Of a stretch of DNA of 64,000 nucleotides, positions 44,655-59,656 are shown piece by piece. Position 1 is the stretch's first letter; each line of letters starts with the position of its first letter. Position numbers and translations under genes: made by a program. Source of the DNA: Methanosarcina thermophila TM-1. GTDB taxonomy: Archaea; Halobacteriota; Methanosarcinia; Methanosarcinales; Methanosarcinaceae. Where the stretch lies: positions 1,612,001 through 1,676,000 of the forward strand of contig NZ_CP009501.1 of assembly GCF_000969885.1 (NCBI RefSeq). Direction: 5' to 3'. The notes below the pieces were generated by a model. It ran no database searches. It was not told the DNA's origin and saw only the letters and a program-made list of their open reading frames with translations.

Positions 44655-45206
44655 TTTTAAATGCACCTGATAATCTCAAATATTCCTTATTTTCCTGACT
44701 AACTGAGCTTCAAACCAGGTTTTATTGTTCTTCTAACTTTATACATATCGTTAATGCATATTGCTGATAGATATGATCTTTTTCAGCTAGTCTGGATGAT
44801 TCTGATGATTCTTAGCGATTCCAGATGAATCTGGATGATCCTTAATGAGTCTGGATTGTACTAAGTTAAAAGCAAGCTATTTTACTTTTTCGATACTATA
44901 TGAAGTCGGCAAAAATAGTAGAGCTAAAAAAGGTTTCTATTTTTGGAGTATCCGTTTTTATTCAACTTTTTATTTTAGTTGATCACATAAACCCAACTTT
45001 CAGCTAAGGTAACAATAGAAAATTCAAGGTAAACAGCAGGTATTTTAGAGAAAATTGAAGTCTATACATTTAGAAGAAGCTATACCGCACCCATTTAAAC
45101 TTTCACAGAGATAATAAAAAGCTATAAAAGAAAAAATAAAGTTCATTTAATTAATAGAAATTATTAGTTAATAGAGTATTAATTAACAGGGCTTAATAGA
45201 AGAGCA
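44655..45206. other. AT-rich intergenic region
   Basis: Near 44789-44860 the word TCTGGATGAT recurs with a small hairpin CCAGATGAATCTGG. No gene is seen. The 3' part is downstream of the protease and rich in ATTAATAG words. Confidence 0.35.
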
Positions 45207-47228
45207 TCAAGTCTTAACTTTAATTTTTAACCCCCAGTTGTTTAAGGTTCCGCGGTCCTGTGCCCATTTATCAACTATTTTTAACTGCCATTTGCCTTTA
45301 ATGCTCTTTCCTTCAAATTGCTTCAATTCCGGCTTGTTTTTAGAATCATAAGTCTCGCTAAGGTTATCTTTCCCTCCACCTTCACCTTCATGCAAAGGTA
45401 TAACCGTGTTATCAGGGCTCACCAGTGAGACAAATAAATCCCCTATATAAGTGTGAGATATATCGACAGAGACTGCTTCGACAGATTCTACAATGCCCTC
45501 TTCATCAATCTGTATCTCGCTAACAATTCCGTTCAAATCGTTATCAGGTATTGCAACTCCCGAAAGGATATTTTTTTCAACAATTCCCCTGGAAGAGTTT
45601 TCCATATCATCCTTAACTGCCTTAAGTGCTTTATAGGCGTTGATTCGCCCATAGCCGAACATTTTGCTATAGCCATCGATGTATTTACCTCTATTCGGAT
45701 CAATTTTGTCTGCAGTATCACACATATATTTTCTAACCTGATCCCACCGCAGGCTCGGGTTTAGCTATAAAATCAGAGCAGCAACACCTGCGGCTAACGG
45801 TGTGGCTGCAGAAGTTTCCCCAAAAGAGTTCGTGTAAAAACCATCTGCATCACCTTTGCCCACATCTCCAACATTATATCCCCTTCCGGGAATCGATACA
45901 TCTGTTGTATAAACCCTTTTTGTTCCTCCGCTGCTTGGAGCAACAAACGCAAGTCCCTCTCCACAGTTACTGTAGGCTGCGATTTCACCCCTGTTAGTTG
46001 AGGCACCTACAGCGATAGCCTCCGGCACATTCGAAGGAAATCCAATTTGATTTTTTGACCCATTCCCAGCCGCCACAAAAACAGGACAGCCTTTGCCGCC
46101 ACGCCCAGTTTGAATGACATCTCTAATGGCATATGTTACATCGTTGCTCTCAGGGCAATTCCAGCTATTGCTCAGTATATCGGCTCTTTGCCCGGCATAG
46201 CGAATTGCATCTGCCAGTCTATTATTTTGGACCAGGTTGTCACCCATAAAAATTTTCACAGGCAGGATCTTGCAATTAGGGGCAACCCCAATAACACCTA
46301 GTGCCCCATTTCCAGTAGCTGCTACCAGACCAGCACAGGGTGTCCCATGATTATCGTTACCTCTCGTCACATAATAAGGAGGAGTGAATTTCTTCGGATT
46401 CGGATCACTGTTACCATCGAAGAAGTCCCAGCCATGTATATCAGGCTGAGAGCTATCAGGATTCGTCCAGATATTGGGCTTTAAATCGGGATGATTAATA
46501 TCCACGCCATCATCGATAATAGCGACTGTAATGTCTGGAGAGCCTTTAGTTAAGCCCCAGGCTTCCTTAGCCTTAATGTCCTCCCCAGGCACACCATGAT
46601 TTTGTCCTGTATTGTGCAGGTACCATTGTTCAAAATATGGCACGGAGGTTTTCTCAATTTCAGAGAGGAAGTTAGGCTCGGCAAATTCGGTCAGATCTGA
46701 TTCATGATATTTCCTTGCTATGGCGAATGTTTCTTTAGGATCCTTTACTTTGAGAATATACTGATTGGGAGCAAAGCGGTCTTTTTCGAGAATCTCAACG
46801 CCAGTCTCTTTGTTAAGCCTATCAATGGCATCATCGGAGACACCGCTTTTAAATCTGACTGTTATTTCATCTGTTACAACCATGCGCAATCCAGACTGAG
46901 GCTCTTTATAGACGGGAAGGACAAGCTCAACACGATCATCGTCTTCAAGGTTTTGTATGGATTCTTTCACATCAACCAGGTGTTTGGGCTGCGGCAGGGT
47001 AACAATTACAAGGTTGTTAGCTGGTATATCCTTGCGCTCTTCGGCATCTGCCAGATCAGGCATATCCAGTAACTTTTTTTCAATAGCATGCGCTGGTACA
47101 TCGCTCTTATATCTCAAAGCAAAGCTGTCAGGCAATTTATTTAGCTTAACTTTTTTATCGCCTACATAATAATACTCATACTCCTCGCTCTGGTTTGCCA
47201 CTTGTTTATCCCCCGTTAAAATCCCCAC
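45207..47228 (-). CDS. Subtilisin-like protease with P domain, interrupted by one in-frame amber codon
   Basis: 673 codons plus stop if the amber at codon 488 is read through. An N-terminal propeptide-like region (about 1-190) precedes the S8 peptidase: Asp239 (IIDDGVD), His294 (NDNHGTPCAG), oxyanion Asn389 (VFVAAGNGS) and Ser473 (GETSAATPLAAG). The frame reads AALIL, TAG, then LNPSLRWDQVRKYMCDTADK without any shift, through to GYGRINAYKAL, the normal end of the peptidase fold. A proprotein-convertase P domain follows (about 540-673; VDISHTYIGDLFVSLVSPDN). The stop falls inside the helix after the catalytic serine, so a truncated protein would not fold. Either UAG is read as pyrrolysine, or the gene is a new pseudogene. 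No signal peptide is seen from GTG 47228. Confidence 0.75.
45765..45767 (-). other. In-frame amber (TAG) codon in the protease
   Basis: The minus-strand codon 488 is TAG, between ATT TTA and CTA AAC. Upstream and downstream are the same frame and the same conserved helix, in a position where related subtilases usually carry a small residue such as Ser. TCG to TAG or TTG to TAG is a single change. Confidence 0.85.
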
Positions 47229-47872
47229 TTTTCAAGATAATTTAGAATATTTTTTTATTTATTAAGTAATTCCAAAACTCAAAACTAAGTCCCTAACTCT
47301 GAAATTTTGAGCAATTAACAGATAATATATTTTCGTTTTGTTGTATACGTTGTTAGAATCACATCTATGTCTATCAACTGCTGATTTGATTGTATGATTT
47401 TATTGCTTAAGTTATATATTAAATAATGCACGTCCCTCGATAAATAAGCGTAAATGAAGAGAATTTTCCAATTAACGACATTAAATATTCACTTTTCCAT
47501 TTTACATTTAAAGCAAGACTTTGTTATCCTGCTGAAAAATCGTTTAAAATCAGGTTTTTCTAAAGATAACACCAAAAAAGCTTTATTTTCACAACTTTCT
47601 GTGATAACCTTCCACCTGAGATTGGCGAAAAAATTCTGGTTTTTGACTATAAATTTCAGGGGAAGGGGTGTAATTTTAAATACGATTCTTCCGTTATTAA
47701 AAAGAAGTAAATCTAAATTAATATATTTATTCTGCGAGATAAAGTAGAATGGATTCCAGAAAGAGAAGTTTTCGCAATCAAACAATTGTAAAGCAAATAA
47801 AGGCAAGTTTAAAATGAATAATATAATAAGCAGCTTAATATACATGATTTACACTAAATTATTGCGATCATC
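47229..47872. other. AT-rich intergenic region
   Basis: Upstream of both the protease (minus) and the cobamide operon (plus). Short frames on both strands have no coding character. Nothing specific recognised beyond AT-rich promoter-like DNA near 47820-47870. Confidence 0.35.
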
Positions 47873-56487: not shown

Positions 56488-57894
56488 ATGGCAACCGAAT
56501 ATTCTTTGCGTATGGGAGACGGGAAGAGAATCTTCCTTACAAAAGATAAGATCATGGAGGAGATTGAGGCAGGTACTGGAAATGCTGCCGACCTTGGTGA
56601 AATCCCTGCTCTGAATGCCAATGAAATTGACAAGCTTGCTGAAATCCTCATGATGCCCGGCAAGGCTGTGAGTGTGGAACAGGGCATGGAAGTTCCTGTA
56701 ACGCACGATATAGGTACTATAAGGCTCGACGGTGACCAGGGCAATAGTGGCGTTGGAATTCCTTCAAGCCGTCTTGTTGGGTGCATGATGCACGAGAGGG
56801 CTTTTGGTGCCGACACAATGGAACTGGGACACATTGACTACAGTTTCAAGCCTGTAAAACCTGTTGTTTCAAACGAGTGCCAGGCAATGGAAGTCTGCCA
56901 GCAGAACATGATCATTCCGCTGCTTTACGGTGCAATGCCCAATATGGGACTCTATTATACCCCGGATGGTCCTTTCGAGAACCCTGGCGACCTTATGAAA
57001 GCTTTCAAGATTCAGGAAGCCTGGGAATCAATGGAACACGCTGCAGAACACCTGACAAGGGACACGGTCTGGGTTATGCAGAAACTCTTTGCCTCAGGAG
57101 CCGATGGGGTCAATTTCGATACAACTGCGGCTGCAGGGGATGCTGATATGTACGGTACCCTCCATGCGGTCGAAGCCCTTAGAAAAGAGTTCCCTGATAT
57201 GTACATTGAAGTAGGAATGGCAGGGGAAATGGTGCTTGGCATGCACGGAAACCTTCAGTACGATGGGGTGACCCTTGCAGGTCTGTGGCCTCATCAGCAG
57301 GCTCCTCTTGTTGCAAAAGCCGGAGCAAACGTTTTCGGTCCTGTCTGCAATACAAATACCAGCAAAACCTCAGCCTGGAACCTTGCCCGTGCAGTTACCT
57401 TCATGAAGGCAGCTGTGGAAGCTTCTCCAATTCCCTGCCACGTTGATATGGGCATGGGAGTCGGCGGAATCCCCATGCTTGAGACTCCTCCGATTGATGC
57501 AGTTACGAGAGCAAGCAAGGCAATGGTCGAAATTGCAGGCGTCGACGGCATATAGATCGGGGTCGGCGACCCTCTGGGTATGCCGATCTCCCACATAATG
57601 GCTTCTGGTATGACAGGAATTAGAGCTGCAGGCGACCTTGTTGCAAGGATGCAGTTCTCAAAGAACATGCGCATAGCCGAGGCAAAAGAGTACGTGGCAA
57701 AGAAACTCGGGGTCGATGTCATGGACCTTGTAGACGAGCATATCATGCGCGAGCTGCGTGAAGAACTCGATATCGGTGTGATTACCTCAGTCCCTGGAGC
57801 CGCAAAAGGCATTGCTGCGAAAATGAATATCGAAAAGCTGCTCGATATAAAGATAAATTCCTGCAACGTCTTTAGAAAACAGATAAGGGAGTAA
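56488..57894 (+). CDS. mtbB: Dimethylamine methyltransferase, pyrrolysine-containing
   Basis: 468 residues with UAG at codon 356 (57553-57555) read as pyrrolysine, matching the known MtbB length and position. The N-terminus [20 protein letters not shown] is that of MtbB. The TIM-barrel protein uses pyrrolysine to orient dimethylamine for methyl transfer to the Co(I) of MtbC. The frame continues after the amber with [20 protein letters not shown] to TAA at the family-normal end. It is cotranscribed with mtbC. Ordinary annotation splits it into two frames. Confidence 0.95.
57553..57589 (+). other. Amber (pyrrolysine) codon of mtbB inside a potential stem-loop
   Basis: TAG 57553-57555. AGATCGG (57554-57560) can pair with CCGATCT (57583-57589), and GGGTC (57560-57564) with GACCC (57568-57572), giving a nested hairpin that begins within the amber codon. 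A hairpin downstream of UAG (PYLIS) was proposed for mtmB; it is not essential for readthrough there. Confidence 0.6.
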
Positions 57895-58168: not shown

Positions 58169-59656
58169 ATGGCAAAAACTAATGCAGTTGCAGGATTTAA
58201 TGCACTTAATGGCGTAGAATTAAACCTTTTTACTAATGAAGAACTCAAAGCAATACACTATGCTACCATGGAAGTTCTGATGAACCCCGGTGTTCAGGTT
58301 TCTGATCCCGAAGCAAGGCAGATCTTCAAAGAAAATGGCTGCGAAGTCGACGAGGAAACCAAAGTTGTAAAAATCCCTGAATATATTGTAAGAAAAGCTC
58401 TTCAGCTTGCGCCTTCCAGATTTGTCCTCTGGGGTCGCGATAAAAAATACAATACTGTACAGGAATGCGGCGGTAAAGTGCACTGGACCTGCTTTGGTAC
58501 AGGAGTAAAGATGTGCAAATACCAGGACGGCAAGTATGTAACAGTTGACTCCGTTGAGCAGGACATTGCAGACATCGCAAAACTCTGTGACTGGGCTGAA
58601 AATATTGACTACTTCTCACTGCCAGTTTCTGCAAGGGACGTTGCAGGTCAGGGTGCACAGGATGTCCACGAGACTTTCACACCGATTGTAAACACATCTA
58701 AACACTATCATCACATAGACCCAGTCGGCGAAAACGTCGAATATTACTGGGACATCGTAAAAGCATACTATGGCGGCGACGAAGAAGAAGCAAGGAAAAA
58801 ACCAATTTTCTCAATGCTGCTCTGTCCAACAAGCCCGCTCGAGCTCAGTGTAAATGCCTGTCAGGTCATAATTAAGGGCGCTCGCCTCGGAATCCCAGTT
58901 AATGTCCTGAGTATGGCAATGTCAGGGGGGTCGTCTCCTGTTTATCTTGCAGGCACGCTTGTAACCCATAATGCCGAAGTGCTCTCAGGAATTGTGCTTG
59001 CCCAGTTGACTGCTCCTGGAAGCAAAGTATGGTATGGAAGTTCCACAACGACATTTGACCTGAAAAAAGGAACTGCTCCTGTCGGATCTCCTGAACTCGG
59101 CTTGATAAGCGCCGCAGTCGCAAAACTTGCCCAGTTCTATGGCCTACCATCCTTTGTGGCAGGTTCCTAGTCTGATGCGAAGATCCCGGACAGCCAGGCA
59201 GGACATGAAAAAACTATTACCACCTTACTTCCAGCCCTTGCAGGAGCAAACACTATCTACGGAGCTGGAATGCTCGAACTCGGAATGACATTCTCAATGG
59301 AGCAGCTGGTAATTGACAATGATATTATTAGTATGGTCAAGAAGGCTATGGAAGGGATCCCTGTCTCAGAGGAAACCCTGTCAGTGGAATCAATCCAGAA
59401 AGTAGGCATCGGAAACAATTTCCTTGCCCTCAAACAGACCAGACAGCTTATAGACTATCCTTCCAGCCCAATGCTCATCGATAGGCGTATGTACGGAGAC
59501 TGGGCAGCATCTGGTTCAAAAGATCTTGCAGCAGTCGCACATGAAAAGGTCGTGGACGTTCTTAAGAACCACCAGGTAAAACCAATTGATGCAGACATCC
59601 TCAAAGATATGCAGGCTGTTGTGGACAGGGCTGATAAAGCCTTCAGAGGCATGTAA
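58169..59656 (+). CDS. mttB: Trimethylamine methyltransferase, pyrrolysine-containing
   Basis: 495 residues with UAG at codon 334 (59168-59170), exactly the published size and position for MttB. It demethylates trimethylamine to dimethylamine and methylates MttC. The N-terminus [20 protein letters not shown] and the barrel segments [20 protein letters not shown] and [20 protein letters not shown] belong to the MttB family. After the amber the frame continues [20 protein letters not shown] to the end. Its product, dimethylamine, is the MtbB substrate, so the locus degrades trimethylamine in two steps. Confidence 0.95.
59168..59170 (+). other. Amber (pyrrolysine) codon of mttB
   Basis: TAG lies between GGT TCC and TCT GAT in a single open frame of 495 sense codons plus the amber. 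No strong stem like that at the mtbB amber was seen directly after it. Confidence 0.9.

Follow-up and report, generated by a model that had tools for sequence, protein, structure and literature searches.

An in-frame amber codon in a lineage-specific subtilisin-like protease gene of Methanosarcina thermophila TM-1

The interrupted gene and its locus

The window, the whole stretch of 64,000 nucleotides of the Methanosarcina thermophila TM-1 genome that was analysed, contains a gene for a subtilisin-like (S8) protease on its minus strand at 45207-47228, where the plus strand is full of stops (Table 1). The frame runs from a GTG (47228) to a TGA (45207-45209) and consists of 672 sense codons and a single TAG, giving 673 residues. 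The original prediction had described one continuous frame with an in-frame amber codon as its sole interruption and this was confirmed, save for the trivial difference that 673 sense codons had been counted instead of 672 plus the TAG. No further stops or frameshifts were identified across the other 672 codons. From alignment with the nearest orthologues, the GTG at codon 10 (47201) is the likelier start of the protein. The N-terminus is without a signal-peptide-like leader and the protease looks cytosolic by type. The loss of an N-terminal portion, which would constitute a hidden lesion, was rejected: the nearest orthologues begin at the same place, also without an extra leader, and the N-terminus thus looks complete.

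Table 1. Features of the protease gene, its insertion locus and the neighbouring methyltransferase cluster (positions within the window)
Feature	Position	Strand	Remarks
Insert of ~2.8 kb with the protease gene, between hisS and cobD	44905..47708	.	
Whole interrupted frame	45207..47228	minus	674 codons with the TAG and the final TGA
Likely true gene extent	45207..47201	minus	GTG at codon 10, in alignment with the start codons (ATG) of L014 and L111
Catalytic Asp239 codon	46512..46514	minus	
Peptidase_S8 catalytic domain (PF00082), residues 232-527	45648..46535	minus	Pfam; spans the TAG
Catalytic His294 codon	46347..46349	minus	
Glu471 codon (GAA)	45816..45818	minus	Replaces the invariant Gly of G-T-S-x-[SA]-x-P
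Catalytic Ser473 codon	45810..45812	minus	
In-frame TAG (codon 488)	45765..45767	minus	
P domain (P_proprotein, PF01483), residues 585-669	45222..45476	minus	Pfam, 68.9 bits; past the TAG
PYLIS_2 (mtbB) match	57553..57652	+	Starts at the mtbB amber codon
PYLIS_3 (mttB) match	59168..59267	+	Starts at the mttB amber codon

No orthologue of the protease was found in the 30 other Methanosarcina species searched (one genome per species), the best match within the genus being 37% identical. In these species hisS adjoins cobD directly, with no trace of the protease, wherever both genes are visible; hisS is not visible in the stretches of a few assemblies, which are uninformative on this point. Homology between the window and the nearest species (G006) ends at ~44904 and returns at ~47708, with 117 unrelated AT-rich bases in between. 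The protease gene is thus located in a lineage-specific insert of approximately 2.8 kb. Judging from these comparisons, the insert was gained in this lineage, its loss in all other species being the less simple explanation. No mobile-element genes or clear target-site repeats were found at the insert ends. A 118-aa ORF lies at the cobD end of the insert (47489-47845, minus strand), and imperfect TCTGGATGATTCT repeats are present upstream of hisS (44785-44860), with a copy number differing from that of G006.

Searches of plasmids and of genome contigs returned distant S8 relatives only (24-32% identity for the latter) and viral contigs gave no match. The nearest relatives, L111 (62% identity) and L014 (61%), are from a different family within the order and match over nearly the whole length. 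They share the N-terminal region, catalytic domain and first P domain with the protease, but differ in being uninterrupted, in possessing Ser at the TAG site and a G-G-T-S motif, and in carrying a second, C-terminal P domain.

Domain organisation and active site

Pfam analysis identified a Fervidolysin_NPro-like prodomain (residues 118-186), a Peptidase_S8 domain that runs across the TAG (172 bits, cut-off 21.8) and a P domain, bearing out the predicted subtilase with a complete P domain past the amber codon. On these matches the protein is certainly homologous to the S8 subtilases. In sequence, the protease comes nearest to the solved structures of Mirolase (8ehe) and, when both domains are taken together, of kexin (1r64, 1ot5). 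While Mirolase-like and kexin/furin-like S8 proteases (8ehe, 1r64) match the catalytic domain, and kexin also the P domain, the protease differs from them in its TAG at residue 488 and in having Glu where the motif has Gly.

The catalytic triad (D239, H294 and S473) and the oxyanion residue N389 are all present in S8 context, with the TAG 15 residues past Ser473, as had been predicted. The serine motif reads G-E-T-S-A-A-T-P and so does not match the pattern G-T-S-x-[SA]-x-P. Gly occupies column 471 in all 42 aligned relatives, Glu being found in the protease alone among the 43 sequences; the codon is GAA, against GGG in L014 and L111. This change (G471E) is a missense change two residues ahead of the nucleophile. 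It could be a tolerated one. From its position, G471E would nevertheless reduce the odds of the full-length product being a normal protease, although it is not proof of this: at least one column that is otherwise invariant is also broken by five other sequences (two such columns by one of them), and the total of violations in the protease is ordinary (two, compared with up to three in others). The earlier claim that the gene carries no second lesion consequently holds for stops and frameshifts, but is weakened by this overlooked change in the catalytic serine motif.

Residue at the amber site

Both L014 and L111 encode Ser (TCC) where the protease has TAG, and Ser is likewise found at this site in L006, L007, L112 and L113. 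Among the 42 aligned relatives the column is varied (S 17, A 10, E 7, Q 6, Y 1 and N 1), which indicates a tolerant site. It corresponds to residue 236 in subtilisin BPN' numbering and, by analogy with that residue, probably lies at the surface of the helix following the catalytic serine. Pyrrolysine could fit at residue 488, where it has no evident task; nothing in the sequence shows a need for it. The TAG is one step away from TCG, CAG or GAG and is known in one sequence, with no conservation among orthologues, and no isolated TAG was found in other S8 domains of the genus. It had been proposed that sense codons in the orthologues would speak against pyrrolysine use: such codons are found in part, namely Ser in the nearest orthologues, which lie outside the genus.

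As the TAG rests on one assembly and is accompanied by no further stop or frameshift, a sequencing or assembly error was considered, in which the true codon would be a sense codon such as TCG. This would have to be a base substitution outside a homopolymer, in a genome assembled as a single contig (3,127,379 bases, 99.95% complete), and is considered very unlikely.

UAG decoding and cis signals

The original prediction held that this genome decodes UAG as pyrrolysine, and components of the machinery were identified: PylS (413 bits), PylD and a tRNA-Pyl (anticodon cta), with a PylB ORF next to the tRNA-Pyl gene. Three methyltransferase genes of the genome (mtmB, mtbB and mttB) contain TAG. The predicted amber codons of mtbB and mttB are present, each with a PYLIS match, in a cluster approximately 9 kb from the protease gene. 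UAG is surely decoded in this cell. The mtmB-like ORF, called mtmB on its sequence, has an in-frame TAG (201 + 256 codons; L105, 9872-10477 and beyond, minus strand) and lies ~2 kb from the contig position of the pyl genes, serving as an internal positive control.

No Rfam PYLIS match was found at the protease TAG, even at E<=10, and the 100 bases past it do not fold better than shuffled controls (z -0.83). Judged in this way, the proven mtbB and mttB regions are likewise unremarkable (z -0.91 and 1.43, respectively). It has been described that PYLIS is not essential for pyrrolysine insertion (PMC2933860; PMC9499178), and that amber codons introduced in Methanosarcina acetivorans receive pyrrolysine at an apparent 20-30% in the absence of such an element (PMC2933860). 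The absence of PYLIS at the protease TAG therefore says little and is not evidence against readthrough.

Census of interrupted reading frames

A census of stop codons was performed on 864 kb (two sets of stretches and the window), representing 28% of the genome. Seventeen of 566 coding-like ORFs in this sample end in TAG (3.0%), and 13 of these 17 reach another stop within 24 codons. Only four continue for at least 40 coding-like codons past the TAG, namely mtmB, mtbB, mttB and the protease gene, with 112 to 256 open coding-like codons each. Since there are just four long continuations and three of them are methyltransferases, the TAG of the protease is more than chance, and in the continuity of its frame it resembles the TAGs of the methyltransferases.

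An excess of TAG over TAA/TGA continuations was considered as evidence of a tolerated TAG and rejected, the numbers being too few (one against one doubtful TAA case). Continuations past TAA or TGA at L126, L116, L119 and L118:10674 are two neighbouring genes according to Pfam; the remainder were judged by eye. In L118 (5080-8121), a 933-aa HEAT-repeat ORF is followed by TAA and then by 80 coding-like codons in frame, which is possibly a TAA-interrupted gene or a short neighbour. Past the TGA of a membrane-protein ORF in L110 (11972-12874 and beyond, minus strand) the frame enters a short tandem repeat (SGNKTGSGNKTK...).

Constraint on both sides of the amber codon

Relaxed selection past the TAG is not visible in coding score, GC3 or unique changes, tests which would not detect a very recent event. 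Before the TAG the coding score is 0.180, and after it 0.197 (gene mean 0.167, sd 0.068), while GC3 is 0.39 on both sides. Unique changes in the protease and L014 (outgroup L006) number 37:29 before the TAG and 15:10 after it, and in the protease and L111 (outgroup L112) 23:23 and 11:10. Values of dN are 0.28 before and 0.37 after the TAG against L014, and 0.26 and 0.31 against L111; dS is saturated in both comparisons (pS 0.85-0.89), so that no dN/dS ratio is given. L014 and L111 are themselves 94% identical in the catalytic domain and 76% in the linker and P domain, and the slightly higher dN past the TAG fits the ordinary lower conservation of these regions.

This lack of any drop in coding constraint counts in favour of a functional pyrrolysine protein, in which selection keeps the TAG and full-length protease is made only with pyrrolysine, resulting in methylamine-dependent proteolysis. 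It is in keeping with such a protein that the other three long TAG continuations in the 864 kb are known pyrrolysine methyltransferases, that the mtbB/mttB cluster is close by and that the site tolerates long polar side chains (E and Q in relatives). However, the TAG is known from one sequence only, at a site which is not catalytic and which is Ser in the nearest orthologues, no PYLIS-like element accompanies it, none of the other Methanosarcina species searched has the gene, and a working protease is less likely with G471E. Although possible, a functional use of pyrrolysine is unsupported, and we regard it as improbable. Slimmer still is the chance of a conditional pyrrolysine protein, whose active full-length form would arise only when methylamines raise the pyrrolysine supply.

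The intact coding character on either side of the TAG also bears on a plain recent pseudogene, the second of the two options named in the original prediction, which were the right ones. Here, UAG would terminate translation, the fragment would be inactive and degraded, and any readthrough would be negligible or irrelevant. The confinement of the TAG to a single sequence with Ser in its orthologues, the change in the active-site motif and the accessory, lineage-specific nature of the gene all agree with this, and the possible TAA-interrupted ORF of L118 suggests that such lesions occur in the sampled genome. On the other side, flanking genes compared with those of G006 show a dS of ~0.17-0.25, of which each lineage accounts for about half, and a stop results from 4.1% of point changes in the protease gene; by a rough reckoning, neutrality ever since the G006 split would have brought the gene ~8 new stops. 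As it contains one TAG, any loss must be recent; were the TAG a full null, its age would have to be less than most of the time since that split. The published leakiness of UAG in Methanosarcina furthermore argues against complete termination, and a plain pseudogene is a serious but rather unlikely alternative.

Proposed origin and expression of the gene

The explanation we consider probable is that an acquired accessory protease recently underwent a nonsense mutation, which host UAG decoding renders leaky rather than purposeful. It is favoured by the uninterrupted L014 and L111 with TCC at the site, the lack of an orthologue in the genus and the empty site of G006. The variable nature of the TAG site, G471E and the lack of isolated TAGs in other S8 domains of the genus are also in agreement with it, as are the absence of a PYLIS match or unusual fold, the presence of the Pyl machinery and the precedent in M. 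acetivorans. Against it stand the lack of relaxation past the TAG and of any further stop or frameshift.

According to this leaky-nonsense explanation, this Methanosarcina lineage would have acquired a gene for an S8 subtilase with a P domain, located between hisS and cobD. A nonsense mutation would then have followed recently at a tolerant position of the helix past the catalytic serine, the simplest route being the change of a Ser codon to TAG. Charged tRNA-Pyl in the cell would make the UAG leaky: during growth on methylamines, when pyrrolysine is made, partial readthrough would give a full-length protein with pyrrolysine at residue 488, while a fragment of 487 residues would be produced without pyrrolysine. 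This fragment, having lost the last part of the catalytic domain as well as the P domain, is unlikely to work. Such incidental readthrough is likely, given that pyrrolysine is inserted at introduced ambers in Methanosarcina (M. acetivorans; PMC2933860). The direction and recency of the mutation, the readthrough of protease mRNA and a low activity of the product are what we infer from these observations. Pyrrolysine at residue 488 would be incidental. To judge by G471E, the protease may already be under loosening constraint, with the gene perhaps heading towards a pseudogene.

Comparison with known amber-containing genes

Amber-codon genes besides those of methyltransferases are few in pyrrolysine-decoding archaea (Thg1, transposases and a CobN-like ORF). 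In the MtmB, MtbB and MttB families a long coding frame likewise continues past the TAG in this genome, but each of these families conserves its TAG and has pyrrolysine in the active site, whereas the orthologues of the protease have Ser at a variable site. UAG readthrough outside methylamine metabolism, as considered here, has been predicted for TAG-containing transposases of Methanosarcina and the CobN-like ORF (PMC2933860, PMC1242214); the TAG of the transposases is conserved among copies and species, while that of the protease is known from one sequence. Given that no such conservation was found and that pyrrolysine is here predicted only, the protease is not placed among the established pyrrolysine proteins.

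A closer parallel is Thg1, the tRNA-His guanylyltransferase of M. acetivorans, whose in-frame amber, according to the account of Heinemann et al. (2009) given in PMC2933860, was gained by neutral evolution and is dispensable. Both are non-methyltransferase genes of a UAG-decoding host with TAG in a single species, a sense codon in the orthologues and a residue at the amber site that is not expected to be needed. Readthrough and dispensability were demonstrated by experiment for Thg1, whereas the protease is known from its sequence; the latter also differs in being an acquired gene that bears a second suspect change, located in the active site. By this analogy, the protease most likely resembles Thg1 in its working, as an amber-suppressed gene of that type.

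A single TAG is in itself poor ground for calling a gene either a pseudogene or a pyrrolysine protein. Were a conditional pyrrolysine protease nonetheless to exist here, it would couple proteolysis to methylamine metabolism through a codon. A clean lineage-specific gene with a single TAG provides a natural test of the extent to which UAG decoding buffers nonsense mutations, and such buffering bears on how ambiguous codes persist.
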